Shown piece by piece: positions 10,243-24,179 of a stretch of 24,584 nucleotides of DNA. Position 1 is the stretch's first letter, and each line of letters opens with the position of its first letter. The position numbers were made by a program, and so were the translations under genes. Origin of the DNA: a virus. Where the stretch lies: the IMG/VR virus record IMGVR_UViG_3300022227_000028, positions 1 through 24,584 of that record; one strand, written 5' to 3'. The notes beneath the pieces were generated by a model. It ran no database searches. It was not told the DNA's origin and worked only from the letters and a program-made list of their open reading frames with translations.

Positions 10243-11212
10243 TATCAAGCCTCTTAGCTCTTTCTTCAGGAGACTCTTCTAACTCAAGCTCTTCACATAA
10301 TTCTTTTCTTAATTGAGCTGTTTTACAATCCTTAATTTCTTTTTCATCAAATCCTAAAGACTCTGCTAAACTTTCAAGTTCGCTACGCATCATATTTTCA
10401 ATATCTTTTTTATTATACTTGCTATTTGCAGTGACTTCTCTTTCTTCTTTCTCAATCTCTTTTTCATCTTTCTTTTCATCTTCTTGTTCTTTTTCATCTT
10501 CTTGTTCTTTTTCATCTTCTTTACAATGATGAACACTCTTAATATAGTCATCTTCAAAGTATACTAAACAATCTTCTAGCGGATTTTCTATTGCAAAATC
10601 TAACCAGTCTTCTTTTCCTAGTTCTGACTTATTGCGAGCAATAGAAATTGCACTGTATTTCCCGGGAGACCCTTGGGTGGGAGCTTCATATTCAAATTCT
10701 ACATCATATCCTTCATCTGGATTATCAATATTAAGTACTCCCCCACCCCTTTTATCAATAGAAAGTTTAGATATGTCCCTATCAATAGTCCATGGCATCG
10801 CCCATAGCCTAACTCCTTCTTTCTCTTCATCTCTATTAATAAGCCAGACTAAAACTCTTTTAGTGACTCTTAACTCTTTAGCATAATCTACATCCCCTTC
10901 ACTTTCTGCTTCTTTCTTTTCTTCACAAATAGTACAATGTTCATCTAACATTGCTTTTCTGCATAAATAAGCAGAATTATCTGCCCCAATGTTATTATGT
11001 ATAAATATGTCTATTCCATAGTGTTGAGCATCTTCAGAAGTTGCAGGTAGTATTCTGATACAATTATTATTTGGCTGAGGTTTAAATAGAGAGTACTCTC
11101 TATTTAAGTAAGTATCTCGATTAGTACTTGCTTGCTGAGACCGTTTCTTTACTTGGTCTTCTGTTCTAGGATTATACTTAAACTTTTTCTTTCTCTCATT
11201 CTTTTTTCTCAT
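10235..11212 (-). CDS. gp32-like ssDNA-binding protein
   Basis: 325 residues. The core begins CIRILPATSEDAQHYGI. The zinc site fits T4 gp32 closely: His72-x11-Cys84-x8-Cys93-x2-Cys96 (T4 gp32 has H-x12-C-x8-C-x2-C). After the core, from about residue 230, comes a very acidic Glu/Lys/Asp tail with three copies of EDEKEQ or close variants, coded by an 18-bp tandem DNA repeat near 10475-10525, then a helical acidic C-terminus. Acidic tails recruit replication partners in this family. The N-terminus is Lys/Arg-rich, as needed for cooperativity or DNA binding. It lies upstream of the coiled-coil and RecA-like genes in one operon. Confidence 0.8.
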   Translation of the reverse strand: MRKKNERKKKFKYNPRTEDQVKKRSQQASTNRDTYLNREYSLFKPQPNNNCIRILPATSEDAQHYGIDIFIHNNIGADNSAYLCRKAMLDEHCTICEEKKEAESEGDVDYAKELRVTKRVLVWLINRDEEKEGVRLWAMPWTIDRDISKLSIDKRGGGVLNIDNPDEGYDVEFEYEAPTQGSPGKYSAISIARNKSELGKEDWLDFAIENPLEDCLVYFEDDYIKSVHHCKEDEKEQEDEKEQEDEKKDEKEIEKEEREVTANSKYNKKDIENMMRSELESLAESLGFDEKEIKDCKTAQLRKELCEELELEESPEERAKRLDSE

Positions 11213-11336
11213 AATCTTCCCTCTCTTTCCAATATTCGTCTCTTGATTTAAAATAAGCTGTAAATATTAATCGCGTTACTATATAACTAAGCACAATTCC
11301 AGTAGTAACAATAGCTAAATTTTGTAATGTAAACAT
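11196..11336 (-). CDS. Small single-pass membrane protein
   Basis: 46 residues. Residues 4-28 (LQNLAIVTTGIVLSYIVTRL...) form one hydrophobic membrane segment, followed by a charged tail rich in Lys and Glu (SRDEYWKEREDYEKKE). AAAAGGAG stands ten bases upstream of the ATG, and the gene overlaps the start of the ssDNA-binding protein by 17 bases. It is transcribed from the promoter at 11359-11387. Function unknown; membrane attachment of replication or a lysis-related role are both possible. Confidence 0.65.
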   Translation of the reverse strand: MFTLQNLAIVTTGIVLSYIVTRLIFTAYFKSRDEYWKEREDYEKKE

Positions 11337-11358
11337 TATGTTTTTGCTCCTTTTAAAT

Positions 11359-11387
11359 ATTATAGTAAGTTATTTAAGTTTCTGTAA
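11359..11387 (-). promoter_or_regulatory. Promoter for the membrane protein-SSB-RecA operon
   Basis: On the - strand TTACAG (11382-11387), 17-base spacer, TATAAT (11359-11364). It lies within and just after the end of the U32-like gene. The 31 bases at 11357-11387 are repeated exactly at 19633-19663 in inverted orientation. A start near 11352 leaves a very short leader with the ribosome site at its beginning. Confidence 0.6.
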
Positions 11388-12479
11388 GACATCTTTTTCA
11401 GATATTACTGTATTACATAATATACATTTATAACCACAATCAATTGCACAATCAATAGAGTTAGAACTTAACATGTCCAAAAAGTTATTTTTGTTGTGTA
11501 AAAGCTTAGACTTATTAATGTCTATAGTATATTGTGGAGCAGAGTAATCTCCTTCTTCTTTACCAATATTTTCTAAATGCGCCCATAATTCTAAAAGATT
11601 ACCACAAAACACTTTTTTCATATATTGTTCTGTAACCCATAATATATATTTAGTTGGATGAGTCCTACCTGTTATTTTAAAGTGATTAATATTCACGTTT
11701 TCTTGGTAGAAGCTCATCCATTGTGGTAAGATAAAGGGTGCTTTTATCCATTCAACAGGCTCTTGATACCTTTTGCTTATACACTTTCCCATAGGATAGA
11801 AGCCGTATAACTTATTTTTTTCTTTAGTATGTCCATGTAATAAATAGCATTGAGTTCTATCTACACAATATATATAACAAAATTCATTAGCTAATAATTC
11901 TACAGTTATTCCTTTGCTTACAGCTTCTTCTTGAAATGTTTTTAGAAATTTAAAATCTCTATTTTTAGCTATTTTCATACACACTTTATCAATTTTTTCT
12001 TCAAAATAATTTAAAGCTTGTATATTGTCAATTTCATATATAGTTGATAATTCTATTTGCAGCTTTGTATATTTATTTACAAAATCAATTAATAATGGGT
12101 GAGATAAAGTAACCCTACGAATACCAACATTTTCAAGATACTGTAAGAAATCAATTATCTCTGTTTCTTTTTCTTTTAAGTTTTGTAAAGAGCCAAAACA
12201 GGGAGTATTAATAGTATAGTTTATGTCAATTCCCATTCTTTTAGCAGACTTTATAAACATTTCGAAATATGATAAACTTTTATCTTGAACTCTATAGTTT
12301 GGTCTTGCAGTCCCTATTGGATTATCAAGCAAGCTTCCATATATTTCTGAGACTTTAATATTATTCTTTTTATACTTTTCATTTAAGATATAAAATCCAG
12401 CTAAAAGTTTTGTGTCCCAATTATTACCTACCATTAAATGTATCATCTCTTTCTTCATTTTTAATTTATTTGAAATCAT
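11370..12479 (-). CDS. U32-family (UbiU/RlhA/TrhP-like) Fe-S TIM-barrel protein
   Basis: 369 residues. A TIM-barrel-like stretch has NTPCFGS (91-97) and RRVTLSHPLLIDF (121-133). The family marks are ITVELLANEFCYIYCVD (191-207) with Cys201, Cys205, Cys211 and Cys233, and the KITGR motif (268-272) before a Tyr-rich helix, matching the KIEGR part of U32 proteins. The C-terminus adds Cys344, Cys348, Cys352 and Cys355, which could bind a second cluster or zinc. Despite the peptidase name, known U32 members (UbiU/V, RlhA, TrhP) hydroxylate ubiquinone precursors or make 5-hydroxy-pyrimidines in RNA. Here it follows a TMK-dCMP deaminase fusion with an ATGA overlap. A role in pyrimidine hydroxylation is inference. 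Confidence 0.6.
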   Translation of the reverse strand: MISNKLKMKKEMIHLMVGNNWDTKLLAGFYILNEKYKKNNIKVSEIYGSLLDNPIGTARPNYRVQDKSLSYFEMFIKSAKRMGIDINYTINTPCFGSLQNLKEKETEIIDFLQYLENVGIRRVTLSHPLLIDFVNKYTKLQIELSTIYEIDNIQALNYFEEKIDKVCMKIAKNRDFKFLKTFQEEAVSKGITVELLANEFCYIYCVDRTQCYLLHGHTKEKNKLYGFYPMGKCISKRYQEPVEWIKAPFILPQWMSFYQENVNINHFKITGRTHPTKYILWVTEQYMKKVFCGNLLELWAHLENIGKEEGDYSAPQYTIDINKSKLLHNKNNFLDMLSSNSIDCAIDCGYKCILCNTVISEKDVLQKLK

Positions 12480-13420
12480 ATTCGTATATTAGTCATTCCT
12501 ATAGTTTCTGCTAATTTATGGCTAAAATTATCGTTGTACTCATCTCTCCAATAAATTTTGCTTACTTTAGCTTGATACAATGCTTTTAAACATGTAGAAC
12601 AAGGAAAGTTTGTAATATATATCTCAGAATGAGATATGTTTATCCCCATTCGTGCAGCTTGTGCAATAACATTCATTTCTGCATGACTAGCCATAGTGAA
12701 GTCTACATTTTTTCCAGATACAATATTTTTTTCTTCTCTAATACATTTGTCTAAGTACATGCAATTTTCTATTCCACGAACAGAACCATTATATCCCGTA
12801 GAAATAATCATCTTATCTTTTACTAGTACTGCTCCCACTTTTCTACGAGCACATGTGCTTCTGCTTTTTATTTCAAATGCTATATTCATAAAATATGAAT
12901 TCCAATCTTCTCTTTTAAAAATGATTCTTCTTAATGTGTATAAGCAACTTTCTAATGATTTGCTAGTGTCTATATAATGTTTACTTAGTTTAGATTGTGC
13001 AACTACGTTTGCATATAGCTTTAAATATGTATCAATATTTTCTAACAAATGATTTGTAGTGTCATCTTTTTTTCTAGCTAATATCTTCTCTTTGTTAGCA
13101 GCACAATATATTAAAATAGCTCCGGCTTTAAAAAGTTCTTTGTCTATCTCTTTTATATATTCTGTACTATACTTTTCTTCTAATGCAGTAGCATACACTG
13201 CTTCTGATAAGTGGAACCTATCAATAAATAAATTTCTTTTTATATGCTTAGCTAATTTTGCAAAGCTTAAATATTCCCCCATTACTACGTGACGATACTC
13301 TAAGCCGTAACTTCTAGGCTTCTCTTTTGTGTAAAGGGAAAATTCATCTGTTTCAGCTAACAAATGTTTTATTAAAGTTGATTTCCCCGCTCCATCTATA
13401 CCCTCAAAAATTACTATCAT
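12476..13420 (-). CDS. Thymidylate kinase-dCMP deaminase fusion
   Basis: 314 residues in two domains. Residues 1-165 are thymidylate kinase-like: P-loop GIDGAGKST (7-15) and the DR motif at FIDRFHLSEAVYA (Asp67, Arg68). Residues 172-314 are a ComEB-type dCMP deaminase: ARRKVGAVLV (191-200), TGYNGSVRG (208-216), the HAE motif with His246 and Glu248, and PCSTC with Cys274 and Cys277 for zinc. The chain would turn dCMP into dUMP and phosphorylate dTMP or a related nucleotide. Its neighbours are a dUTPase-like gene upstream and a U32-like gene downstream. The ribosome site is weak (AGAG). I see no frame break between the domains, so this is a real fusion. Confidence 0.85.
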   Translation of the reverse strand: MIVIFEGIDGAGKSTLIKHLLAETDEFSLYTKEKPRSYGLEYRHVVMGEYLSFAKLAKHIKRNLFIDRFHLSEAVYATALEEKYSTEYIKEIDKELFKAGAILIYCAANKEKILARKKDDTTNHLLENIDTYLKLYANVVAQSKLSKHYIDTSKSLESCLYTLRRIIFKREDWNSYFMNIAFEIKSRSTCARRKVGAVLVKDKMIISTGYNGSVRGIENCMYLDKCIREEKNIVSGKNVDFTMASHAEMNVIAQAARMGINISHSEIYITNFPCSTCLKALYQAKVSKIYWRDEYNDNFSHKLAETIGMTNIRI

Positions 13421-13449
13421 ACTTTTTTCTCTACACAGATAGCTTACTA

Positions 13450-13818
13450 TTATAAACTTTTGCTTCTTTCAATTGAATATTTTTGTTCAACTAATTTTGA
13501 TTTTGTCTTCCACGTAGTTTCAAAATCTTCAACTTGAATATCTAAATAGACTAAGAAATTAACTAAAAACTTGGTTATATCTACAAGCTCTTCTAGTATT
13601 TTATCTTTATTAAGAGGTTTGAATGTATTTGGCTTATGAATTTTCCAGTTTAGTTCTCTCAACACTTCATGGCACTCTTCTGTAATATGAGTAACCATTT
13701 TAACACATAAATCATTTTGCTCTTTTTCAGTCAAGTTATCTATATCTAACCCAACATCTCTTAATAATTGCCTGTTAAAAAGTAACTGTGTAAGCTTCAT
13801 GTCAAGTATATCTAACAT
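13450..13818 (-). CDS. All-alpha NTP pyrophosphatase, dimeric dUTPase-like
   Basis: 122 residues. EECHEVLRELNWKIHK (47-62) and ILEELVDITKFLVNFLV (74-90) give the EExxE...ExxD metal site (Glu47, Glu48, Glu51, Glu77, Asp80) of the MazG/dimeric dUTPase superfamily. The LNWK pattern after the first motif favours the dimeric dUTPase branch. It would hydrolyse dUTP or a related dNTP to the monophosphate. The start follows AAAGGAGGTGAAAAT, an excellent ribosome site, and overlaps the glycosyltransferase stop by 7 bases. Placed between the glycosyltransferase and the TMK-dCMP deaminase fusion, it belongs to the pyrimidine group. Substrate is inferred. Confidence 0.7.
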   Translation of the reverse strand: MLDILDMKLTQLLFNRQLLRDVGLDIDNLTEKEQNDLCVKMVTHITEECHEVLRELNWKIHKPNTFKPLNKDKILEELVDITKFLVNFLVYLDIQVEDFETTWKTKSKLVEQKYSIERSKSL

Positions 13819-14861
13819 ATTTTCACCTCCTTTAGTTCTTTGATTATTCTTTCTTTATTATATTCTAAGCTTTTCTTTTCAACATTTAATTCAACATTAG
13901 CTTTTCCTGTAAGCAAGTCAGAGTAGAATTCAGAAAAGCCATTATAGAAAATAGGTTTAGCTCCTAAATAAGCAGCTTCTATTATGCCAACTGACGCCCA
14001 TTTTCTTAAATCATACATGACAGGAATGATATGGCTTTGTGCCATAAACTTATACATAGGCCCTCCGCATAAATCTATTTTTGTAATTTGGCTGTTTATT
14101 TTTATTGTGCTACTATAGTTTGGGTCTGTAACTATTATGCTATATTTATCTTTATAGGCTTGAATTAGTTTATCTGCAATTCTTAGAAATGAGTCTGATT
14201 TTGTTCTAGCTAAATCAGATAGTCTAGTAAGATATAATATTGTTTGTCTGGGAAACTTATTATTAGTTTTGTACTTACTTAACTCTGCTTCAGAATAAAA
14301 TACGTCAAGAACTTTATGGTGCTCACAATTATTTAATCCTAAATAATTTGAAAAGCTTTCTCTATTTTTTTCTGTGTTAAAATAAACTAAATCAGATTTG
14401 TTTGCGCCGTCTAAATCTCTCAAAAATATACTTGAGCACTTATTAGTATAAATATCAAGATAATGTATGAATGAAACAATTCTAATGTCATCACTTATTT
14501 GTCTAAAGTAAGAAGCTTTTTCTATAGGACATAAAATAGTATCAATCTTACGCTTGTTAACAATAGTAGCCATTTCATCATAATCAAAGTTATATCTTTG
14601 GCTACCAGCATTATAAGCATGCTTGACAGCAATATGATAAGGGTATCTTTGGCTGCCAGTACAGCTATCTAATCCAAAATCTGGAATGTAATTTATAGTT
14701 TTTCTGTGAGGTATTACTAAATAAATATTAGCATTAGGAATAGCTGCTTTTACTATCTTTGTAAAGTACTTCATTAATTTAAAATTAGCATCTTTTTCTA
14801 GTAACCAAAGATTAGTTATGTAGCTTCTCATTGAGTATTGTGGCCAAACTAAAATATTCAT
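13812..14861 (-). CDS. GT-B type glycosyltransferase-like protein
   Basis: 349 residues. The C-terminal half has the GT-B (GT1/GT4-like) donor-site pattern WASVGIIEAAYLGAKPIFYN (288-307), with Glu296 in the usual sugar-nucleotide binding place, and the preceding strands TILYLTRLSDLA (207-218) and YSIIVTD (240-246). The N-terminal half begins MNILVWPQYS, a typical first beta strand. The acceptor is unknown. It overlaps the radical SAM stop (ATGA) and the pyrophosphatase start, so it is co-expressed with pyrimidine enzymes; DNA base glycosylation is one reading. Some features of usual family members are weak, so the assignment rests mainly on the one motif. Confidence 0.55.
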   Translation of the reverse strand: MNILVWPQYSMRSYITNLWLLEKDANFKLMKYFTKIVKAAIPNANIYLVIPHRKTINYIPDFGLDSCTGSQRYPYHIAVKHAYNAGSQRYNFDYDEMATIVNKRKIDTILCPIEKASYFRQISDDIRIVSFIHYLDIYTNKCSSIFLRDLDGANKSDLVYFNTEKNRESFSNYLGLNNCEHHKVLDVFYSEAELSKYKTNNKFPRQTILYLTRLSDLARTKSDSFLRIADKLIQAYKDKYSIIVTDPNYSSTIKINSQITKIDLCGGPMYKFMAQSHIIPVMYDLRKWASVGIIEAAYLGAKPIFYNGFSEFYSDLLTGKANVELNVEKKSLEYNKERIIKELKEVKIC

Positions 14862-15799
14862 ATAAATATTTCTCTTTCTTTTAACATAAGCTCTTTTTCT
14901 ATTTCAATATTAAGTTCATCATATCTGTTACAATACTTACACTCTTCTGCTTTTTTAGAAGTTAGTGTTTTATACATGGCGCTAGCTCTTATATTACTAA
15001 AAAAGATACCCTTATCTCTTGTGTAACCGAAGATATCATTGTACTCCCACTGCTTGTGTATATTTTTATTCCACTTCTCATTATCATGATATGTGTGACA
15101 GCATGGATAAAGGTTCCCACTCGGGTCTATTATGCAATGAAAGTTTATAACGTAACAATTTGTAGATTTAGAGAATTTTTTCATATAACATACGCGTTGA
15201 CTAAGAGGCTCATCTCCATAGGCATTATATATTTTAGTCTCAATATTTATATTGTTAAAATATTTGACAATATTCTCTATTTCTTGATAATTTAATGTTT
15301 GCTTTGTAATATTTACTCTAACATTTTTGTTTTCTTTAGCAACAAAGTTTAAGTTAGATAAAGCTACGTCAAGTTTTGCTTGCCTAATTTTATAATAAGT
15401 ATCAGGATATATTGAATCAATAGAAAATCTAATCCACTTAGCATTCTCTAAAGTACATTTTTGTAGAGATAATTTATTGCTCCATTGTCCTGATGTAATT
15501 ATTCCGTACTTTATCTTACTATTATGTATTTGCTCACATATCTCATTAATTTTAGGGTGTAAGAAGGGTTCTCCTCCCGATAAGACAATTGTTTGAGTTC
15601 CACAGACTATAAGATAATTTAATAAGCTTGAAAACGTTTTCATTGTCATTTCTTCTTGTGGCCATGTGCGCTTAAAACACATGTTGCATTTACAAATACA
15701 CTTATTAGTTAAATTTAGTTGTACTGATAGGGGGAATATATCATTTCGTTTAATAAATGCAGCTAGCACTTTTGCTTTATGTTTTACTTTATCTAGCAT
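14858..15799 (-). CDS. Radical SAM protein with SPASM-like C-terminus
   Basis: 313 residues. The radical SAM 4Fe-4S motif is NKCICKCNMCF, giving Cys34-x3-Cys38-x2-Cys41, followed by the SAM-binding LSGGEPFLHP. The C-terminal region has CYVINFHCIIDPSGNLYPCC and CKYC, as in SPASM/twitch domains that bind extra Fe-S clusters and often act on peptides or nucleosides. The start ATG lies inside the last codons of the polymerase gene, and the stop overlaps the glycosyltransferase start. The substrate is not told by the sequence. The neighbouring glycosyltransferase suggests a shared modification pathway, possibly of DNA, nucleotide or a glycan. Confidence 0.8.
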   Translation of the reverse strand: MLDKVKHKAKVLAAFIKRNDIFPLSVQLNLTNKCICKCNMCFKRTWPQEEMTMKTFSSLLNYLIVCGTQTIVLSGGEPFLHPKINEICEQIHNSKIKYGIITSGQWSNKLSLQKCTLENAKWIRFSIDSIYPDTYYKIRQAKLDVALSNLNFVAKENKNVRVNITKQTLNYQEIENIVKYFNNINIETKIYNAYGDEPLSQRVCYMKKFSKSTNCYVINFHCIIDPSGNLYPCCHTYHDNEKWNKNIHKQWEYNDIFGYTRDKGIFFSNIRASAMYKTLTSKKAEECKYCNRYDELNIEIEKELMLKEREIFI

Positions 15800-18700
15800 T
15801 TATAATCTCTTTTCTAAAGTTTGTAAAGTTATTAAAAAAGTCTTTTTGTCTAGTAACGTCTCTAGCAACATAAGCGGGATGCCAGTTACCAATTACTTTT
15901 ATTCCATTAGCTAGCTCAATCATATTTCCTCTTGTTACAGGATCATTTAGTGCTCTCATTGCAACAGTGCCAAGAGCAATTATAAGCTTGGGTTGTATGA
16001 TTTCTATTTCTTTCACTAAATATTTTCTACAATTTTCTATATTTTCTTTGGGAATATTATCCGTTGCACATTTAATTGTATTAGTGATACAAAAGTCTTT
16101 TTTAAATTTTAATCCTACCATATTTAAAGCTCGATACAAATGTATTCCGGACGTTCTATACCCTTTTTTAAGATTGAGTCCGAATGGAGCTTCATAATAA
16201 ATTCCATCACCGTTAGGTGATTGTGCTATTATCATAATATTATTTCTATCTCCCAGTACAACATCTCTTTTGTTTAAAGTATAGTTTTTACAATCTTTAC
16301 AAGCTTGTAGTGTTTTGTTCAACTCTTTTAATGTGCTTATCTCAGAGAAGTAAGTATGCTTTTTGATTTTTTTAGATATTGCTTCTCCACACTTTTCTTT
16401 AAAATTATTAAAGTCTTTAAACGGACGTTGGCTGATTATTTTATTAGCTGTTTTTTCAGCTATGCCTTTACATAAAATTAAGCCTGACCGAATTCCATTG
16501 TGCTTTTTATCAATAGAATAATTTGCTTGTGAATAGTTAATATCAACAGGCAATATTTTATATCCTAATCTTTCAACTTCAGAAAGATACATGTGAACTT
16601 TATCATCATCTGAATTATTAAGAATTGCAGCCATATATTCAAGAGGGTGATGTACTTTTAAGTACATTGTTAAATATCCAGTAATAGCGTAGCTTGCAGA
16701 ATGACTCCGATTGAAACTATACTTTGCAAATTCACATATATCTTTCCAAAGTTTTTTGACCTCTTTTGTTTGTAACCCGCTGGACTCAGCTCCCCTTAGA
16801 AATCTTATTTCATGCCTCTTAATAATTTCTACAAATTCAGGCATTACAAATTTGTCAGTAGTTTTAAATTTAGTAATCATTTTCCTTAGTTCATCAGCTT
16901 CTGTAAGAGAATATTTTGCTAATTTTTGAGCTAGCTGCATGATTTGTTCTTGATATACAATTTGTCCATAAGTATTTTTAAGCACTTTCCCAATAATAGA
17001 ACTATCAATATAGTTGCTATGTTTGTGCTTTATATACTTTTCAATCATTCCAGACTCAATTGGCCCAGGCCTGTGTAATGCGCAAGTAGCTATTAAGTCT
17101 TCTACTGAATCTATACGTAGCCTTTTTAATATATCTCTCATTGGGGGAGATTCAAACTGAAAAACTCCCTTTGTATGTCCTGCTGTAAATTCATCAAGCA
17201 CTTTTTTATCTTCTAGCTTGCTAAAAATATTAAATTCGTCTAAAGTTGTATTAAGATAGCCAAGACATTCTTTTATGATTGTTAAGTTACGTAACCCTAA
17301 TAAGTCAAATTTAATAAACCCAAGGCTGGAAAGCTCTGGCATCATAACTCGCCCTGTCGCTTCTATAAACCCAGTTACGTATGTATCTGAACCAGCTCTT
17401 ATTATAGGAATGTATTCATTAATATTTTTGTTAGAAATAATAACGCCTGCTGCATGCTTAGATACGTGCCTTCTATTGTCTAGCAGCAATTTTGTATATT
17501 CAAAAACATCTGGGTACTTTTCTTTAAGATATTTAAAGCTATTTAAGTTATCAAAATCTTTTATTTGTGCTACTTCAGCTAATAAGCTTTTGTCATTCAA
17601 GTCTAATACTCTGTGTAAGTCTCTAACAATAGCTTTTATTTGATATGTAGAGAACGTGCCTATATCGTATACATTATTTTCTCCATACTCTTTTTTTAAA
17701 TATTCTTTTACTTTTTTTCTATCTTCTGTACCAAAGTCAGTATCAATATCAGGAAACTCTTTTCTATCTTCATTTAAGAATCTTTCAAAAATTAAGTTAA
17801 ATTTTATCGGGTCTAGCTTAGTAATACCTAATACATAAGACACTAAACTTCCTGCTGCAGAGCCTCTTCCTAAGCCTACTATTAAAGAATACTTCTTACA
17901 ATGCTGTATTAGTTTATACATAACTAAGAAGTATTCAGAAAATTGTTTCTTCATAATTAAGTCTAATTCTAAGTTTAATCTTCTTTTGTATCTGCTTCTT
18001 TTATTTAAACCTAAAGCTTCAAAATTTTTGTCTACAGCTTCACACAATATTTTATGACTATCAGTATAAAGACCAGCAAACTTTGATTGTTTATTAAATT
18101 CTATTGCTTCACAAGAATCAACTATATGTTCTACATTATCCATTGCTTCTTTTATCTCATTATCTGATAAAATATTTTGCAAACAAAATGTATATAGCAT
18201 CTGGCTATGACTTTTAAAATATAATTCTCGAAAGTCAGATTTAAACTTTTCTGCGTCTTTATCTTTAACAGTCTTATTAAAAGTTAAAAGTCGCATGTAA
18301 TCATATAATTTGTTATGAGATTTCTCTAAGTAGTGCACATCATTTGTAGCAACTAGGGGTACTCCCAATTCTTTTCCCATTCTAACTAATTCTCTATTCA
18401 CATTTTCTTGTTTCCAATGCATGTGTGGCATAACTTCTAAATACAGATTGCTACTAAAAATAGACTTAAGCTCTAAAATTTTGTCTTCAGCTTGTCTTAT
18501 CTCATTATTTAGTATGTCTTTACAAACTATTCCCCCAATACAAGCTGTTAAAGCAAATATGTCATTTGAACCCTTACACACTCGCTTTATTGTTTCTAAG
18601 TCTGTATGGGGTTTGTAATAAAAGTTTTGATGGCTATCATTTACAAGCTCTAATATCTTATAGAAGCCTGCAGTATTTTTAGCCAACAAAACAATATGCC

Positions 18701-18956
18701 TTTCATCTCTGTCAACTGACTTTCTAATTTGTTCTGCTTTATCTTTAATAACATATAGTTCAACTCCTATGATGGGGAGTATGTTGTTCTTAATCGCTGT
18801 AGTGTGAAAAGAGTAAGCTCCATTAATGTTACCATGGTCAGTTATTGCTAAGGCTCTTTGGCTTAATTCTACTGCTTTCTGTATTGCTTTTTCTGACGAT
18901 ATCATACCATCTTGTAGTGAATTGTCTGTGTGGAAATGTAAGTGTGAAAATCTCAT
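15789..18956 (-). CDS. dnaE: Family C DNA polymerase (DnaE-type alpha) fused to a UDG-like domain
   Basis: 1055 residues. Residues 3-210 are a PHP domain (FSHLHFHT with His7 and His9; ITDHGN with Asp40, His41). The polymerase core shows GLGRGSAAGSLVSY (361-374), FPDIDTDF (401-408, catalytic Asp403 and Asp405), HAAGVIIS (501-508), IKFDLLGLRNLT (548-559, third Asp551), ALHRPGPIESGMI (626-638) and FNRSHSASYAITGY (748-761). Around residue 860 the usual OB-fold and tau/clamp-binding part is missing. Instead residues 870-1055 resemble a family 4/5 uracil-DNA glycosylase: Cys886, Cys889, Cys963 and Cys976 for Fe-S, motif A-like AQSPNGDG (911-918) and NWHPAYVAR (1024-1032). The catalytic acidic position is altered, so activity is uncertain. 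No Shine-Dalgarno site precedes the ATG. Confidence 0.85.
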   Translation of the reverse strand: MRFSHLHFHTDNSLQDGMISSEKAIQKAVELSQRALAITDHGNINGAYSFHTTAIKNNILPIIGVELYVIKDKAEQIRKSVDRDERHIVLLAKNTAGFYKILELVNDSHQNFYYKPHTDLETIKRVCKGSNDIFALTACIGGIVCKDILNNEIRQAEDKILELKSIFSSNLYLEVMPHMHWKQENVNRELVRMGKELGVPLVATNDVHYLEKSHNKLYDYMRLLTFNKTVKDKDAEKFKSDFRELYFKSHSQMLYTFCLQNILSDNEIKEAMDNVEHIVDSCEAIEFNKQSKFAGLYTDSHKILCEAVDKNFEALGLNKRSRYKRRLNLELDLIMKKQFSEYFLVMYKLIQHCKKYSLIVGLGRGSAAGSLVSYVLGITKLDPIKFNLIFERFLNEDRKEFPDIDTDFGTEDRKKVKEYLKKEYGENNVYDIGTFSTYQIKAIVRDLHRVLDLNDKSLLAEVAQIKDFDNLNSFKYLKEKYPDVFEYTKLLLDNRRHVSKHAAGVIISNKNINEYIPIIRAGSDTYVTGFIEATGRVMMPELSSLGFIKFDLLGLRNLTIIKECLGYLNTTLDEFNIFSKLEDKKVLDEFTAGHTKGVFQFESPPMRDILKRLRIDSVEDLIATCALHRPGPIESGMIEKYIKHKHSNYIDSSIIGKVLKNTYGQIVYQEQIMQLAQKLAKYSLTEADELRKMITKFKTTDKFVMPEFVEIIKRHEIRFLRGAESSGLQTKEVKKLWKDICEFAKYSFNRSHSASYAITGYLTMYLKVHHPLEYMAAILNNSDDDKVHMYLSEVERLGYKILPVDINYSQANYSIDKKHNGIRSGLILCKGIAEKTANKIISQRPFKDFNNFKEKCGEAISKKIKKHTYFSEISTLKELNKTLQACKDCKNYTLNKRDVVLGDRNNIMIIAQSPNGDGIYYEAPFGLNLKKGYRTSGIHLYRALNMVGLKFKKDFCITNTIKCATDNIPKENIENCRKYLVKEIEIIQPKLIIALGTVAMRALNDPVTRGNMIELANGIKVIGNWHPAYVARDVTRQKDFFNNFTNFRKEIINAR

Positions 18957-18999
18957 ATTTTAACTATATCTTACAAAATTTGAATTATTCTAGCTCCAT

Positions 19000-19078
19000 A
19001 GACGACGTTAGAGACACTTTTTTAATGATGTTCATAGGTAACCATGGTCAGCTTTTATAGGTCAGCCAGCAACCTCTG
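19000..19078 (-). repeat. Antisense-oriented repeat element, copy B
   Basis: Lies between the sigma-like gene stop and the polymerase start. 49 bases (19011-19059) are identical to 22207-22255 of copy C, and 35 of them match the Mre11-like gene start region on the other strand. The outer arms are only partly complementary here. It occupies most of the 123-base gap; the rest is AT-rich with no clear promoter. Confidence 0.75.
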
Positions 19079-19079
19079 C

Positions 19080-19598
19080 TTACAATCCTTTTTCTAAAAC
19101 TAGCTTGATGTTTCTTAAGTGTGTTGTGACCCGATGCTGTGGAATGTCTAAGTGTTTTGCTATAATTGCTCGTTCATTTTTTATTCTACCATTATTAAAT
19201 CTTATGGGGGAAAATACTTTTGGAAAATCAGTAAAAGCTCTTAGCACTGCTTTTGCTTCTGAATTTAATAGTTTAGATAAAGAATCAATTGCTTCAATCA
19301 AGTCTAAAGAAGTATCTTTCTGAGCTGAATTATTTGATATATTGTCTTGATAGCTTTTTTTAGAATAAGATAGTTTAGCTTCTTTAGCTATCATCCCAGC
19401 TAAAACAAGTTTTAAGCAATGAATAAAGTATGTTGTATACTTAGCTCTCATGTTTGGATTATAAGCTTTGCGACAATGTATTAGAACTAAATAGCCTTCC
19501 TGATATAAATCATTATAGCATAAAATTGAATAAGCTGGAAGTTTTTTTGAATAAATACTTGCTACTTTTTTTAGATAGTACATATCATTTCTAGTCAT
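19080..19598 (-). CDS. Sigma-factor-like transcription protein
   Basis: 172 residues. The segment CYNDLYQEGYLVLIHCRKAYNPNMRAKYTTYFIHCLK (27-63) has the sigma70 region 2 layout (D-L-x-Q-E-G-x-x-x-L, then an A-Y/F-N/D-P segment and a T-x-Y-x-x-x-x-L helix). The C-terminal ERAIIAKHLDIPQHRVTTHLRNIK (142-165) is a helix-turn-helix like region 4. A small phage sigma factor would redirect host RNA polymerase, perhaps to middle or late promoters such as those of the + strand genes, which lie outside this window. The start follows AAGGAGAGTCAA. It stands upstream of the polymerase, separated by repeat element B. Confidence 0.65.
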   Translation of the reverse strand: MTRNDMYYLKKVASIYSKKLPAYSILCYNDLYQEGYLVLIHCRKAYNPNMRAKYTTYFIHCLKLVLAGMIAKEAKLSYSKKSYQDNISNNSAQKDTSLDLIEAIDSLSKLLNSEAKAVLRAFTDFPKVFSPIRFNNGRIKNERAIIAKHLDIPQHRVTTHLRNIKLVLEKGL

Positions 19599-19631
19599 TT
19601 GACTCTCCTTATTAAAAATTATTATTTTTTT

Positions 19632-19661
19632 TTTACAGAAACTTAAATAACTTACTATAAT
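19632..19661 (+). promoter_or_regulatory. + strand promoter opposite the early genes
   Basis: TTTACA (19632-19637), or TTACAG with a 17-base spacer, and TATAAT (19656-19661). The 31 bases 19633-19663 are an exact inverted copy of the promoter at 11357-11387. No + strand gene follows, so the product would be a noncoding RNA antisense to the small genes at 19693-20044. Confidence 0.55.
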
Positions 19662-19664
19662 ATA

Positions 19665-19692
19665 CTAATCTTTCTCCTTGGGGGAAGGTTAG
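19665..19692 (+). ncRNA. Hairpin at the 5' end of a candidate + strand RNA
   Basis: CTAATCTTTCTC and GGGGAAGGTTAG can pair over about 12 bases around a four-base loop. On the + strand the non-Watson-Crick pairs are G-U, while on the - strand they become C-A mismatches, so the structure favours a + strand RNA. It begins at the expected start site of the promoter at 19632-19661. The 3' end of the RNA is unknown. Confidence 0.4.
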
Positions 19693-19857
19693 TTAATGAT
19701 ATATCAACTCTTTTAATCTATCTCTTCTCTTCATTTCTTTAGTAAGCTTCTTTTTTAAAAGAGATATCTGCTTAGCAGAACTATTAAGATAGATTAGTGT
19801 TTCTAATCTATCTATTTTTTCATTAACTCTTTCAAGTTGAACTTCTTCATGAATCAT
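19693..19857 (-). CDS. Small coiled-coil protein
   Basis: 54 residues (MIHEEVQLERVNEKIDRLET..., ending KRRDRLKELIYH). It is a heptad-like helix with an acidic first half and a basic second half. AAAGGA lies seven bases before the ATG. It overlaps the end of the gene at 19847-20044 by 11 bases, and the hairpin at 19665-19692 starts right after its stop. No function is recognised. The + strand promoter and hairpin make an RNA antisense to it possible. Confidence 0.6.
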   Translation of the reverse strand: MIHEEVQLERVNEKIDRLETLIYLNSSAKQISLLKKKLTKEMKRRDRLKELIYH

Positions 19858-20044
19858 AGCTTTTTCCTTTCAATTTAGTTCCTGTTACATTAAAGTTGTC
19901 CATCCAGTGTAGAAGTATCTTTTTAGCAGATTCTTTATCTACATTAAATTCTTTTTGAATGTATTGACCTGCCCCAAACATGTTTGTTACCCCTGACTCC
20001 CTTAACTCGTCTAAGAAAGATAAATGTTCTTGCTTAATAGTCAT
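19847..20044 (-). CDS. Small conserved-type phage protein
   Basis: 65 residues. The pattern FLDELRESGVTNMFGAGQYIQKEF (9-32), then ESAKKILLHWMDNF (38-51), recalls a small protein found in many unrelated phages, of unknown role. It is helical, with no membrane segment. The start follows AAAGGAGAATAAT. It overlaps the next small gene, which sits in the same transcription unit before the sigma-like factor. Confidence 0.6.
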   Translation of the reverse strand: MTIKQEHLSFLDELRESGVTNMFGAGQYIQKEFNVDKESAKKILLHWMDNFNVTGTKLKGKSYDS

Positions 20045-20120
20045 ATTATTCTCCTTTCTAGTTTTGTAATAATTCTATCTCTTCTCCTCCTTAATAACTC
20101 CCCTTTGTATGACAGTACCC

Positions 20121-20345
20121 TCAACCGTCTAATATCTTTGTATGTCCACCATTCATTAAGGTTAAGTGGTAGCCTTTCTTTTTTGCAAAATTATTCACTG
20201 CCTGTGACAATGCTGCTTGCGAGGGGTATGTGGTAAGCACTCCCTCTGTATCAATATCATGACCTTGCTTGTTACAGATTTCAGCATAATATAAATCTTC
20301 ATCAGGTGAATAAACTAACCACACAAATAATCTTTCCTTATCCAT
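20121..20345 (-). CDS. Unknown small protein
   Basis: 74 residues. An N-terminal beta-like stretch (RLFVWLVYSPDEDLYYAEI, 5-23) is followed by a helix (SQAALSQAVNNFAKKKGYHLT). The start follows AAAAGGAGACGAGGTT and overlaps the stop of the small gene upstream. It might be a small alpha/beta regulator. No motif is recognised. Confidence 0.5.
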   Translation of the reverse strand: MDKERLFVWLVYSPDEDLYYAEICNKQGHDIDTEGVLTTYPSQAALSQAVNNFAKKKGYHLTLMNGGHTKILDG

Positions 20346-20493
20346 AACCTCGTCTCCTTTTACAAATTCTCTTATGACGAAATAAATTTTGTCCGACTCT
20401 TACTACGGTGTTGTCCGCTTTGAATAATATATAAATCTTATCTTCACAAAGTCCCTCTATTCCAACTTCAGCCTCGCTTGGACTATTTACCAT
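20338..20493 (-). CDS. Unknown very small basic protein
   Basis: 51 residues (MVNSPSEAEVGIEGLCEDKI... ending KRICKRRRGYG). The first half looks alpha/beta and neutral; the last 12 residues are mostly Arg and Lys, which suggests binding to nucleic acid or an acidic partner. The ribosome site GGGGGTGAGAAATAA precedes the ATG. It overlaps the gene at 20121-20345 by 8 bases. Confidence 0.5.
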   Translation of the reverse strand: MVNSPSEAEVGIEGLCEDKIYILFKADNTVVRVGQNLFRHKRICKRRRGYG

Positions 20494-20551
20494 TTATTTC
20501 TCACCCCCTCTCTTTTTCTTATTACATTAAAAAATTAAAAGTAAAATAAAA

Positions 20552-20821
20552 TTATTCTCCCAATCTGTTTGATTGAGGCGATACTCCAAAGACATACTCC
20601 GTTCCATAATCTTCCTCGCCTCTACTTACCACAGCAACGAACCACCATTCATCGCCGTAATCATCATAATCATCATACATTTCTTGTCCCCCTCCTGTGC
20701 TGTCATATTCATAAAGTTTGTTACTATAGAAATTTTTGAACTCTGCAATTTTAAGAACTTCATATTTGCAATCATTATAATCTTTTACTACACTTCCTAC
20801 TTTCATTTTAGGCTTTTCCAT
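20552..20821 (-). CDS. Unknown acidic protein behind promoter cassette R2
   Basis: 89 residues. The start MEKPKMKVGSVVKDYNDCKYEV suggests a small beta barrel (SH3-like). The middle (EMYDDYDDYGDEWWFVAVV) is strongly acidic and aromatic. It starts at GGAGGAGAATCAGATGG directly behind cassette 20841-20990. Its last codons and 3' spacer match those of 4679-5086. A DNA-mimic or inhibitor role would fit the acidity but is a guess. Confidence 0.5.
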   Translation of the reverse strand: MEKPKMKVGSVVKDYNDCKYEVLKIAEFKNFYSNKLYEYDSTGGGQEMYDDYDDYGDEWWFVAVVSRGEEDYGTEYVFGVSPQSNRLGE

Positions 20822-20840
20822 CTGATTCTCCTCCTATGAC

Positions 20841-20990
20841 AAAAAGTTAAAAAATAGTAGATGTTAATTATGTATGTATTATAATATAATATATCATTAC
20901 GTAAACAAGAAAATGTCTCTTTTCTGAAAATAGTTTATAAGTGTTACAGTATAACTACTTAAAAATGAAAGTTTTTATAAAATTTTAGTT
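20841..20990 (-). repeat. Promoter cassette, copy R2
   Basis: Nearly identical to 5104-5254 and partly to 24204-24320. It stands before the gene at 20552-20821 and directly after the end of the gene at 20995-21372. The upstream half has an imperfect dyad, GTTACAGTATAAC on the + strand, shared with R3 and altered in R1. Confidence 0.85.
20878..20905 (-). promoter_or_regulatory. Sigma70-like promoter in cassette R2
   Basis: TTTACG, 16-base spacer and TATAAT on the - strand, the same as in R1. Transcription should start near 20871 and read the genes from 20821 leftwards. Confidence 0.6.
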
Positions 20991-20994
20991 AAAC

Positions 20995-21372
20995 TTATGC
21001 TTTGCTTACTACTTTGTTATTTCTTTCCCATATATGTGAATAGCCTTTGACTTTACAATAGCAAGGCCATCTGTCCATTCCATCTTTGTGTCGTAAGCCA
21101 TAACAATGTTCCACTTCATGTTTAATAAGATGAACTACTTCTTCATGACATAAAATGCCTGGGGGAAGCCGAAGCCATATAAAAGGAGCATCATAGCGGG
21201 CGTATCCCGTTAAGTGTTTCTTTGAGCGATTAAGCTCGACAACAAATGTCCCTTTTCTAGACCATAATAAGTGGTCTCCCTTTTTCTTAATCTCTTCTTT
21301 GACTAGCCTACGATAAAACTTTTTCTCCATAGCAGAGAACTTTTTCTTCTTGTCTAGAATTTTAATTTTCAT
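20995..21372 (-). CDS. Metzincin-like small zinc metalloprotein
   Basis: 125 residues. HEVEHCYGLRH (85-95) is an exact HExxHxxGxxH zinc motif: His85, Glu86, His89 and His95, with Gly92. The preceding part (GTFVVELNRSKKHLTGYARY, then PFIWLRLP) looks like beta strands, as in the N-terminal lobe of zincins. It is shorter than usual proteases, so it may be a minimal peptidase or a non-catalytic relative. No signal peptide, so it would act in the cytoplasm. The start follows AAAAGGAGAATCG. An early phage protease acting on a host protein is plausible but unproved. Confidence 0.6.
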   Translation of the reverse strand: MKIKILDKKKKFSAMEKKFYRRLVKEEIKKKGDHLLWSRKGTFVVELNRSKKHLTGYARYDAPFIWLRLPPGILCHEEVVHLIKHEVEHCYGLRHKDGMDRWPCYCKVKGYSHIWERNNKVVSKA

Positions 21373-21439
21373 CGATTCTCCTTTTAAAAGATTAAGTTAA
21401 AGTACTAAACATTTCATTTCAGCAATTTTAAGGTTAAAA

Positions 21440-21736
21440 TTATTTCTCTTCTTCTTTTTGAATTACACCGCGTACATTAAATATCCCTATTCTAACTGCT
21501 AATTCACAACCTGATGGACAGATAATTGCCCCGTCTATCTCGTCAATATAAGTATCTTTGTATGCTTTATACACAGCATATTTTAGATTATTGCCAGAAG
21601 AATTACTTGCGGCATACTTAATCGCGGTTTTTAAATCTTTTGCTTTACCCCAACCATTGCCATTTGAAATAACAAGATAATGAGTTAAGCCTTTCAAGTA
21701 ATCAATTATGATTTCTCGTTTCTCTTCTATATCCAT
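21440..21736 (-). CDS. Unknown small early protein
   Basis: 98 residues (MDIEEKREIIIDYLKGL...). ATG at 21736 is preferred to a TTG at 21748 because GGAGAG lies just in front of it. The middle (LKTAIKYAASNSSGNNLKYAVYKAYKDTYID) is alpha-helical, and the end (ICPSGCELAVRIGIFNVRGVIQ) looks like beta strands with two Cys. No family is recognised. It is read before the metzincin-like gene. Confidence 0.5.
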   Translation of the reverse strand: MDIEEKREIIIDYLKGLTHYLVISNGNGWGKAKDLKTAIKYAASNSSGNNLKYAVYKAYKDTYIDEIDGAIICPSGCELAVRIGIFNVRGVIQKEEEK

Positions 21737-21827
21737 TTCTCTCTCCAATTCCCTGAAAGTGAAATGTTTAGCTAAACTATTAAATTGTCAAAGAACAAAA
21801 ACGTAATAATATAATTTATTATAATAT

Positions 21828-21856
21828 ATTATACCATAATCTGATGTGGGCGTATA
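21828..21856 (-). promoter_or_regulatory. Extended -10 promoter, diverged cassette
   Basis: On the - strand TATACG (21851-21856), a 17-base spacer and TGGTATAAT (extended -10, hexamer 21828-21833). The TTTTCTTG before the -35 is shared with cassettes R1 and R2. It lies between the genes at 21908 and 21736 and should drive the latter. Confidence 0.6.
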
Positions 21857-21907
21857 CAAGAAAATATATTTTTTTTTGAGAGCTTTTATATAACACTTAT
21901 AATTTGA

Positions 21908-22135
21908 TTAAAAGTCCTCTGGAGGATATAAGCTGTACTCATATCCAGCAACATTGATACGGACAATTTTCATTTCCATGTTGCCCTTTTTATTGCTTGA
22001 TACGGGATATCTTTTATTTAGTACTCCTGTTTCAAGATTGTACGCCCAAGGAAGAGTATAACCTTCCTCTCCCATTTTCATATCTTTTATTTGTCTTTTT
22101 CTATTAAAAGTGCCAATAAGCTTTATGTTTGACAT
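21908..22135 (-). CDS. Unknown small protein
   Basis: 75 residues (MSNIKLIGTFNRKRQIKD..., ending GYEYSLYPPEDF), beta-rich with no membrane segment. AGGGGG lies four bases before the ATG. Repeat element C (22196-22273) lies in its leader, between it and the gene upstream. No motif is recognised. Confidence 0.5.
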   Translation of the reverse strand: MSNIKLIGTFNRKRQIKDMKMGEEGYTLPWAYNLETGVLNKRYPVSSNKKGNMEMKIVRINVAGYEYSLYPPEDF

Positions 22136-22195
22136 AAGACCCCCTTTTTAAAGTTTTGACTATAACTATGACTTTTTCCTCAATTCAAGGTCGCC

Positions 22196-22273
22196 AGATG
22201 ACGCTGGAGACACTTTTTTAATGATGTTCATAGGTAACCATGGTCAGCTTTTATAAGCTAGCCAGCGTCATCT
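22196..22273 (-). repeat. Antisense-oriented repeat element with perfect 12-bp arms, copy C
   Basis: AGATGACGCTGG (22196-22207) and CCAGCGTCATCT (22262-22273) are perfect inverted repeats enclosing the 49-base core shared with copy B. 48 bases (22194-22241) match the start region of the Mre11-like gene with one extra T. On the - strand the hairpin begins at the stop codon of the gene at 22273-22470, so it would be the 3' end structure of that mRNA or a processed RNA. Confidence 0.8.
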
Positions 22274-22470
22274 TATGTAATGAACTTCATCCCTGCATCT
22301 CTTAATTTCTCTATTAAAAGTGTCGGACTTTTGGGTGGATTATATGGGTGGCCTTGATAGCCGTCAATATATCCGTTGAATGCATTGATATCGGGTATAG
22401 TATTAGGTAAGTCACAATTTTTGTTTTGTGCTCTATCAAGAGCTCCTGCTAAATAATGTGTCTCATACAT
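22273..22470 (-). CDS. Unknown small protein
   Basis: 65 residues with many Asn and Pro. The centre (INAFNGYIDGYQGHPYNPPKSP) is likely loop or beta. The end (LIEKLRDAGMKFIT) is a helix. CAGGAGATAAGTT precedes the ATG. Its stop codon touches repeat element C. No function is recognised. Confidence 0.5.
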   Translation of the reverse strand: MYETHYLAGALDRAQNKNCDLPNTIPDINAFNGYIDGYQGHPYNPPKSPTLLIEKLRDAGMKFIT

Positions 22471-22524
22471 AACTTATCTCCTGTGTTAAAAGTTAGCATA
22501 AAGTAAACTAATAAAAGCAAATTC

Positions 22525-22866
22525 TTATAGTCCGTAAGTTACCCAAAAACCATTGTTGAAGAAATGTTCTAGTCTGTAGCCGTTCCTGCCAGAAGGATGT
22601 TCCCAACGATAGTGAAAAAGTATTCTTGCATATTGTTGTTTAACATTTACTTTAGCATCAATTTCTATTACAGCATCAATAAATAGGGGACTCATTAGTC
22701 CCAGAGTACTGGTGTTTATTTCTATTGTGCCTAAAGTTTGAAATACATCAATTGCTTCTCTCTTATGGTTAAAAGGTTCTATTGCAGTTTCTATCTTAAC
22801 ATCTACCCCAAGTTCTTTAAGCTTATGATTTACTTTTGCTTCTAATTCTTCTATACGATACCCCAT
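22525..22866 (-). CDS. Unknown early protein
   Basis: 113 residues. An N-terminal helix (IEELEAKVNHKLKELGVDVKIE) precedes beta-like stretches (ILFHYRWEHPSGRNGYRLEHFF, 83-104). It starts with GGAGAATCAAATGG, the common ribosome-site cassette of this block. No family is recognised. Confidence 0.5.
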   Translation of the reverse strand: MGYRIEELEAKVNHKLKELGVDVKIETAIEPFNHKREAIDVFQTLGTIEINTSTLGLMSPLFIDAVIEIDAKVNVKQQYARILFHYRWEHPSGRNGYRLEHFFNNGFWVTYGL

Positions 22867-22896
22867 TTGATTCTCCTTTTTCTGTGTTTAAAAAAT

Positions 22897-23070
22897 TTAA
22901 TAACAAGGACACGGTGGAGCAGCCTCTCTGGTATCCCCTTGTCTCTCCCATGCCCTGATACAACATTCTCTGGAGCAATAAAAACTACAACCATGCCCAG
23001 CACACCATTTATGGTTCTCCTCGTTATAAGTCTTATTACAGTAACCACACTTACATTTGGTCATTGTCAT
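22897..23070 (-). CDS. Cys-rich zinc-finger-like small protein
   Basis: 57 residues from the ATG at 23070, chosen because GGAGATGAGAAG is just upstream; a longer frame to 23127 has no such site. Nine cysteines lie in CKCGYC (6-11), WCAGHGCSFYCSRECC (about 22-37) and near the end (PCPC), plus two His. Spacing such as CxxC and CSFYCSRECC suggests one or two zinc-binding treble-clef or MYND-like units. It may bind nucleic acid or protein. Family not identified. Confidence 0.55.
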   Translation of the reverse strand: MTMTKCKCGYCNKTYNEENHKWCAGHGCSFYCSRECCIRAWERQGDTREAAPPCPCY

Positions 23071-23116
23071 CTTCTCATCTCCTTTTTTAAAATAGTTGAA
23101 CATTAATAGAATAAAA

Positions 23117-23404
23117 TTATTCATCATGTGTTAATAACCCATCAATCATATTTTCTAGTTCATCGTTTGACATGTTATCAAAATCAACATGTCTGGGTCT
23201 TATTCCGTTAACTTCTTTGAACAAGTCCCAAATGCTCTCAATTAAATTGTGTCTTTTAAACTCTTCAACTGTAGTAACTCCAACTTCTTTCCAATAGCTT
23301 TCATCTTCAGTCCACGTTGATGCGAAGCGTTCTTTTGGGTTTTCTGCTACCCACTTTTCTGTCTTTGCATTTTCTGCTTTAATATACTTAATTAAATCTT
23401 TCAT
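23117..23404 (-). CDS. Unknown conserved-type phage protein
   Basis: 95 residues, acidic, helical at both ends. The segment SIWDLFKEVNGIRPRHVDFDNMSNDEL (57-83) is similar in layout to short proteins seen in many phages, function unknown. It starts at GGAGAATCAAATG. I can only say that it is probably a genuine early gene. Confidence 0.55.
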   Translation of the reverse strand: MKDLIKYIKAENAKTEKWVAENPKERFASTWTEDESYWKEVGVTTVEEFKRHNLIESIWDLFKEVNGIRPRHVDFDNMSNDELENMIDGLLTHDE

Positions 23405-23437
23405 TTGATTCTCCTTTAAGATTAAAAACTATTAAAA

Positions 23438-23917
23438 TTAACAAGGAATTAAGTGAACTACTTCCTCTTTATGTTTGATAGGCTTTCCATTTAATAGCTT
23501 TACTATTACTTTTCTTGCTTCTTCAAACATTTTAAAGCCGATATATATTCTATTTGAATATGCTTCCTCTGGAAAATCATTAATTGTTGGCGGATTTAAG
23601 AATATTTTTTTCGTTTTCCAGTGGTCAATAACTAGGTCTTCTCCAGTTCTGTGTTCAGCAACTGTTATAACTAATGTTTCTCCCTTTTCTAAACTCCTGA
23701 AAAGTATACTAAATCCTCGTTCTCTACCATTATACCATGCTGCTGTTTTCATAGAGCCAAGATGGTGTTCTAAAAATCCTATAGAATTTGTTTTACTTAT
23801 TTCAACCGGATTTTTTCTGAGGAACTTCAGAAAACTTACTGCTTGCTTATTTAAGCCGTCCTCTATTCTGTCCAGCTTTGTTCCTTTACCATTAATATTA
23901 TAAGCTAAATATTCCAT
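23438..23917 (-). CDS. Unknown early protein
   Basis: 159 residues. The N-terminus is MEYLAYNINGKGTKLDRIEDG; the middle (GFSILFRSLEKGETLVITVAEHRTGEDLVIDHW, about 68-100) looks like an antiparallel beta sheet; the end (FKMFEEARKVIVKLLNG) is a helix. No catalytic motif is clear. It begins at GGAAGGAGAATCAAATGG, and its 3' spacer is shared in style with its neighbours. Confidence 0.5.
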   Translation of the reverse strand: MEYLAYNINGKGTKLDRIEDGLNKQAVSFLKFLRKNPVEISKTNSIGFLEHHLGSMKTAAWYNGRERGFSILFRSLEKGETLVITVAEHRTGEDLVIDHWKTKKIFLNPPTINDFPEEAYSNRIYIGFKMFEEARKVIVKLLNGKPIKHKEEVVHLIPC

Positions 23918-23945
23918 TTGATTCTCCTTCCTAAAAGTTAAAAAA

Positions 23946-24179
23946 TTAGCTAAATAAAAGAGACTTAATACTAACGTCTCCGTGAAGTGTTTCTTTAAGA
24001 GAGTCTGCTAACTCATCTTTACTCTCTTTATGAATTTCAAGAACTCTAAGTGCATTTTTCAGAGAAGGCTGATTCTGAAGATGTTCAGTAGTGTGATTGT
24101 CTTTAAGAATATTAATAACTTCTCCAATATTCTTACTTGCTTCCTTACTTTCTTGATATCTTTGAAATAGGCTTTCCAT
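23946..24179 (-). CDS. Unknown small helical protein, first gene behind cassette R3
   Basis: 77 residues, mostly helix (MESLFQRYQESKEASKNIGE..., RVLEIHKESKDELADSLKETL). AAGGAGAAGAAAG precedes the ATG. It is the first gene after promoter 24221-24249, so it is probably expressed very early. No family is recognised. Confidence 0.5.
   Translation of the reverse strand: MESLFQRYQESKEASKNIGEVINILKDNHTTEHLQNQPSLKNALRVLEIHKESKDELADSLKETLHGDVSIKSLLFS

Follow-up and report, generated by a model that had tools for sequence, protein, structure and literature searches.

Phage replicative polymerases joined to a domain of the uracil-DNA glycosylase (UDG) fold are known from family A, where the PaBG group (PaBG gp205) carries the UDG domain at the N terminus (PMC7412058). 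The polymerase of Thermus phage phiLo (PDB 9qhs) has the same N-terminal arrangement. Here, we describe a polymerase of another family with such a domain at its C terminus. It is a DnaE-type family C polymerase encoded in IMG/VR virus record IMGVR_UViG_3300022227_000028, of which positions 1 to 24,584 were analyzed (hereafter, the window).

A family C polymerase ending in a UDG domain

As proposed in the original prediction, which was made from the letters alone, the fusion is encoded in one open frame (15789-18956; 1,055 amino acids, ATG start), and Pfam and TIGR00594 confirmed a family C DNA polymerase with a PHP domain. The PHP, DNA_pol3_alpha, finger, HHH_6, and UDG domains each scored above their curated Pfam cut-offs. 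TIGR00594 (DnaE) gave 700 bits (cut-off 434), and the DnaE part matched Thermus DnaE (2hpi) at E 3e-126. In the alignment to 2hpi, residues matching HHDHEHCDH, the nine-residue signature of active PHP domains (PMC12926913), were all present, and Asp403, Asp405, and Asp551 lined up with the catalytic Asp triad. Polymerase activity and PHP proofreading are hence both plausible, and residues 1-863 apparently form an active family C polymerase. The NCBIfam DnaE models covered residues 1-868 only, with 150-300 profile positions unmatched beyond. By these models and Pfam, the C-terminal oligonucleotide/oligosaccharide-binding (OB) fold and tau-binding region of cellular DnaE, already noted as missing, are therefore absent from the window protein. 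A full-length AlphaFold2 model of the fusion had a mean predicted local distance difference test (pLDDT) score of 85.7.

The C-terminal domain belongs to the UDG superfamily and is family 4/UdgX-like. PF03167 matched it at E 4.9e-16 (59.5 bits, cut-off 24.3), and a PDB sequence search with the C-terminal 196 residues returned family 4 UDGs only (1vk2, 1.1e-11; 1ui0, 2.3e-9; 4zbx, 6e-6). The isolated domain, modeled from an alignment with 23 fused relatives, reached pLDDT 81.0 and a predicted template modeling score of 0.81, with one weak loop (pLDDT <50) directly after motif A (model 49-60, residues 922-933). Fold comparison placed family 4 UDG 4zbx first (Z 21.6; root-mean-square deviation (rmsd) 2.1 over 168 residues), followed by UdgX (Z 19-20), the family 5 UDG 2d3y (17.3), and MUG/TDG (about 13); the UDG domain of the phiLo polymerase (9qhs) gave Z 13.2. 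Profile, PDB sequence search, and fold together rule out a chance or low-complexity match and uphold the predicted UDG-like C terminus with its four iron-sulfur (Fe-S) type cysteines and HPA motif (1026-1028). Of the earlier label "family 4/5-like", the family 4 part stood (Z 20-22), but family 5 was more distant than UdgX. TIGR00758, the curated family 4 model, scored 56.5 bits, below its cut-off of 125.3. The domain lies within the span first given (residues 860-1055), but begins at about 886, residues 864-885 being a linker between the HHH and UDG domains.

Two further assemblies cross the junction near position 16360. A 33,192-base contig (IMGVR 3300025112) differs from window positions 7792-24584 (16,793 bp) at a single base. 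A contig of dataset 3300002518, a separate assembly of a near relative, covers 3168-17890 (14,725 bp) at 99.7% (40 mismatches). Both datasets may share a sampling site with each other or with the window. Since both contigs read through the junction, an assembly chimera at this point, which the original prediction had named as a way to be wrong, is ruled out.

Relatives with the same domain order

Contrary to what had been implied, the fusion is not unique: phages nickie, RHEph10, and SSU5, plasmids, and two more metagenomic lineages share its domain order. The DnaE proteins of Pseudomonas phages nickie and hairong carry C-terminal PF03167 matches above cut-off. Thirty named phage records aligned with the whole of nickie DnaE (ATW57997.1); among them are Rhizobium RHEph10 types, Stenotrophomonas, Klebsiella, and Escherichia phages, and Salmonella SSU5. 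Each of 780 plasmid records matched at least 80% of the nickie protein, the best 40 all end to end, and phrog_405, a public "DNA polymerase" profile, matched it through residue 1129. A second group, lineage A, comprises uncultured phages in IMG/VR (L047 and about 15 further contigs, among them L074, L075, L077, L136, and L138) whose DnaE bears a UDG domain, mostly with GE(A/G)PG at motif A and, in most members, four cysteines and HPA/HPS. The remaining source is a single sequence found in three contigs (L043, L044, and L055). These fused relatives were recovered through nickie and L047 queries. When viral contigs were searched with the window protein, whole or as its UDG domain alone, nothing came back beyond the same phage and two unfused, distant DnaE. 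A contig scan with L075 added one hit, L147, which is identical to L047 over their shared C-terminal part.

Several relatives carry insertions or interruptions. In Aeromonas plasmids NZ_CP077222.1 and NZ_AP024137.1, dnaE is split by a NUMOD4 gene, and one piece is annotated "uracil-DNA glycosylase family protein". Lineage A members L079 and L080 have an intein with a Vsr/DUF559-type nuclease domain inside the UDG domain, directly before the third Fe-S cysteine. Inteins usually sit in conserved, needed motifs, so this position would fit a working UDG domain in lineage A. L085 has an intein-like sequence inside the DnaE part (ending VSHN before SYGFNKSH), and L142 a long insert between DnaE segments. 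About 100-150 extra residues, DnaE OB-fold-like by eye, separate HHH from UDG in L136, L138, L082, and L085 of lineage A; in L136 and L138, this stretch had no Pfam match.

Trees of the DnaE core recovered lineage A and the SSU5/Nickie type as two clades, each with full support, and placed the window and L043 in neither; the window sat on a long branch close to unfused phage DnaEs. The tree requires three changes of fusion state, and a single clade of all fused proteins was not rejected (approximately unbiased test, p-AU 0.078), nor was the window held with lineage A (p-AU 0.122) or with the SSU5 types (p-AU 0.147). The trees are hence compatible with one or with several origins of the DnaE-UDG fusion.

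Active-site states of the UDG domain

In a multiple alignment against Tth UDGA, the window domain retained all four Fe-S type cysteines (C886, C889, C963, and C976) and the equivalents of the uracil-contacting Asn80 and His155 (N959 and H1026), with K962 and R1032 likewise present, while the water-activating Glu was replaced by Gln912. Residues 911-915 read AQSPN in place of the family 4 motif A GE(A/G)PG. The GEQPG motif and the KRRIH R-loop with its cross-linking His, which define UdgX (PMC10359453), were absent from residues 911-980.

Biochemical work on UdgX bears on this replacement. E52 activates the nucleophile, or water once the cross-linking His is replaced, as does the family 4 Glu, and the H109S/E52N mutant has a kcat/Km lowered about 75-fold (PMC10359453). 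E52A is slower by 1-2 orders, keeping about 1-2% of activity for G/U; mutants of F65, N91, and H178 (Tth Phe54, Asn80, and His155) show no measurable activity (PMC10776899). Hence, loss of the Glu alone weakens cleavage while the binding residues stay, and the window pattern is the one expected of a domain that would still bind uracil but cleave it poorly. The earlier suggestion that the altered motif A favors reading over excision gains support from Gln912 at the Glu41/Glu52 site (PMC10359453).

Active-site residues varied among the relatives, counted here as sequences with near-duplicates included and not as independent events. At the Glu41 (Tth) site, occupied by Gln in the window, lineage A had Glu in 12, Asp in 2, and Gln in 2, and the SSU5/Nickie type Asp in 35/35. 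The Asn80 site was Asn in the window, in 14/16 of lineage A, and in 0/35 of the SSU5/Nickie type; for His at the His155 site, the counts were 15/16 and 1/35, the window again keeping it. The third Fe-S cysteine was present in the window and in 16/16 of lineage A, and in none of the 35 SSU5/Nickie-type sequences. Pro43 and Pro156 (Pro914 and Pro1027 in the window) were invariant and Lys83 (Lys962) nearly so (34/35 in the SSU5/Nickie type).

Genomic surroundings

The host element is a tailed phage predicted to encode much of its own replisome, with the fusion as its probable replicative polymerase, because primase, helicase, exonuclease, terminase, portal, and single-stranded DNA-binding protein genes are present. 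The longer contig carries a Toprim primase-like gene, an SNF2-type helicase, a DnaB-type helicase, a 5'-3' exonuclease, terminase, and portal, and the window a gp32-like single-stranded DNA-binding protein, a RecA-like protein, a phosphoesterase/ATPase pair, and a PDDEXK nuclease. No second polymerase was seen in the 33-kb contig, which is partial; nor did that partial contig contain a thymidylate-synthase-like (hydroxymethylase) gene.

Downstream of the polymerase follow, in order, a radical SAM/SPASM gene, a gene without a Pfam match, a dUTPase_2/MazG-type gene, a kinase-dCMP deaminase fusion, and a U32-type gene (Table 1). The radical SAM/SPASM gene overlaps the polymerase stop and is probably cotranscribed with it. 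Genes for dUTPase_2 and dCMP deaminase also lie no more than about 2.5 kb from the fusion in the lineage A contig G024, and contig G023 has a dUTPase_2 gene about 2 kb from it. Such neighbors occurred in only a few of the 20 fusion records tested, so their link to the fusion is suggestive but not general; the fused domain was the sole UDG match in all 20. A pairing like that of the window is also found in phages PMBT14, Almagne, Lebethron, Serbin, and others, where the family A UDG-polymerase gene adjoins a dCMP/cytidine deaminase gene.

The window also contains repeats. A perfect 85-bp tandem repeat (24371-24584, 2.5 copies) continues in the longer contig (L130, 1280-1578) with at least one more copy. 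Intergenic AT-rich repeats of about 80-100 bp are dispersed at 5104-5203, 20841-20940, 24184-24283, 18987-19077, and 22183-22273, two copies 15.7 kb apart being 100% identical; these may be promoters or replication sites.

Table 1. Features of the fusion gene and its neighbors (window coordinates)
Feature	Coordinates	Strand	Basis
DnaE-UDG fusion polymerase, 1055 aa, ATG start, single open frame	15789..18956	-	ORF and Pfam
PHP domain, residues 5-178	18423..18944	-	Pfam 1.6e-35; aligned to Thermus DnaE 2hpi
DNA_pol3_alpha (palm/catalytic), residues 314-554	17295..18017	-	Pfam 1.3e-67
DNA_pol3_finger, residues 557-702	16851..17288	-	Pfam 1.3e-41
HHH_6, residues 798-863, last recognized DnaE part	16368..16565	-	Pfam 9e-11
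UDG domain, residues 886-1055 (domain proper about 886-1046; PF03167 match 905-1043)	15792..16301	-	Pfam, PDB, fold
CKDC, first two Fe-S cysteines C886 and C889	16290..16301	-	sequence, alignment
Motif A AQSPNGDG, residues 911-918; Gln912 at Glu41 (TthUDGA)/Glu52 (UdgX) site	16203..16226	-	alignment
ITNTIKC, residues 957-963: Asn959, Lys962, third Fe-S cysteine C963	16068..16088	-	alignment
Fourth Fe-S cysteine C976	16029..16031	-	alignment
Motif B HPAYVAR, residues 1026-1032	15861..15881	-	alignment
Radical SAM/SPASM protein, sharing 11 bases with the end of the polymerase frame	14858..15799	-	Pfam, gene calls
dUTPase_2/MazG-type nucleotide pyrophosphohydrolase	13450..13818	-	profile match
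Thymidylate-kinase-like and dCMP deaminase fusion, one frame	12476..13420	-	profile match
U32-peptidase-type protein, same gene run as polymerase	11370..12479	-	profile match

Possible roles of the UDG tail

We tentatively favor, at a probability of about 0.4, a role for the tail as a reader that recognizes uracil (or a modified pyrimidine) but excises it weakly or not at all, and that stands where DnaE has its OB fold. The domain would bind an Fe-S cluster and its pocket would accept a flipped uracil (or modified pyrimidine), while Gln912, in place of the water-activating Glu, would make bond cleavage slow or absent. The OB fold of DnaE contacts the single-stranded template. As the UDG domain occupies that position, it may inspect the template and pause at, or mark, uracil, and no abasic site would arise ahead of the fork. 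The dUTPase and dCMP deaminase neighbors would suit a phage producing dUMP yet excluding uracil from its DNA. Several points weigh against such a reader. Pocket function need not explain retention of the domain, since the pocket is gone entirely in SSU5-type relatives, which keep the domain all the same. We infer its placement relative to the template from the OB position, and its Fe-S binding, DNA binding, and catalytic state are predicted from sequence. The residual activity of E52A UdgX means that Gln912 is no proof of lost excision, and L143 and L144 of lineage A also have Gln at the motif A Glu, adjoining an Asp (GQDPG). Phe925 was supported as the stacking residue by pairwise but not by multiple alignment, and sits in the low-pLDDT loop.

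The mostly canonical residues of lineage A (E 12/16, N 14/16, H 15/16, four Cys) make active fused UDGs plausible, and the window pocket keeps all residues but one. The tail might thus be a working glycosylase whose motif A is variant, its tether to the polymerase allowing uracil met or incorporated during replication to be excised at once. Motif A does vary across the UDG superfamily, and E52A UdgX is slow, not dead (PMC10776899). However, the equivalents of Gly911, Glu912, and Gly915 are all altered (AQSPN for GEAPG), the acidic stretch after motif A (EEED in Tth; DKED in UdgX, with D59 essential) is GDGI, and excision of template-strand uracil at the fork would create a blocking abasic site; we regard a working glycosylase as unlikely. 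Selection of the fold without catalytic chemistry is suggested by the SSU5/Nickie type, whose sequences keep the domain in 35/35 although Glu, Asn, and the third Cys are gone in all 35 and His in 34/35. A comparable structural or DNA-binding leftover in the window, stabilizing the polymerase or holding template nonspecifically without base recognition, seems improbable to a similar degree, given that Asn959, His1026, and four cysteines are retained, a degree of conservation not expected of a purely structural role. Highly improbable, in our view, is a domain that reads a hypermodified pyrimidine of the phage's own DNA, marking self template. In its favor, the operon encodes the kinase-like and deaminase fusion, a dUTPase, a radical SAM protein, and one more enzyme-like product. 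Phages SP-15 and phiLo have family A polymerases that bear a UDG domain, and the PDB title of 9qhs reads "with modified template". The DNA of SP-15 and SPO1 carries modified uracil. Yet no neighbor matched a known DNA-hypermodification enzyme by profile, and the hydroxymethylase gene is missing from the partial contig.

A broader scheme, which we consider doubtful, would make the uracil-reading tail a built-in reader of uracil or modified bases at template entry, an analogue of the uracil-stalling archaeal family B polymerases. The DnaE-UDG family would then have passed stepwise from glycosylase (lineage A) to reader (window) to replisome structural domain (SSU5 phage-plasmids).

Comparison with known systems

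The UDG join, noted before in family A, is here extended to family C, where several lineages have it, a widespread phage-plasmid group among them. Many phage and plasmid records annotated "DnaE" conceal a repair-type domain. Together, these proteins present, on a common scaffold, active sites that range naturally from intact-looking to eroded, so that the role of a glycosylase fold on a replicative polymerase becomes testable: to excise uracil, to sense it, or to hold DNA.

Among fused proteins, the Nickievirus/SSU5/RHEph10-type DnaE (nickie ATW57997.1, SSU5 AFL46979.1) shares the PHP-polymerase-HHH-UDG order at about 30% identity to the window protein, but its PHP has diverged and, unlike the window, its UDG has lost the active site and third Fe-S cysteine; the SSU5 UDG region scored 18.9 bits on PF03167, below the cut-off that the window exceeds. 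Lineage A shares with the window a C-terminal UDG with four Cys, Asn, and HPA/HPS, but has a mostly canonical motif A GE(A/G)PG and a separate branch in the DnaE tree. The nearest DnaE cores by identity (38-39%), those of Moorella phage MTATph1 and gut-phage DnaE, belong to polymerases without a UDG domain, MTATph1 having a separate UDG-like gene. Family 4 UDGs (1ui0, 1vk2, and 4zbx) resemble the window domain in fold (Z 20-22, rmsd 2.0-2.4 over about 168 residues), the four Cys, Asn80, Lys83, and His155; the window differs in motif A, in extra residues after it, in being polymerase-joined, and in falling far below the TIGR00758 cut-off. UdgX resembles it in fold (Z 19-20), Asn, Lys, His, and the motif B Arg, but the GEQPG and KRRIH features of UdgX are missing from the window sequence. 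Within the open-licence literature, searches that also covered the UDG-like domain by name, 9qhs, and the phiLo polymerase turned up no paper describing a family C/UDG fusion, which is weak evidence of absence, and the words glycosylase and UDG do not occur in a survey of bacterial DNA polymerases (PMC12926913). The family C-UDG join thus appears to be present in public records but undescribed, whereas the joining of a UDG domain to a polymerase is itself known for family A.

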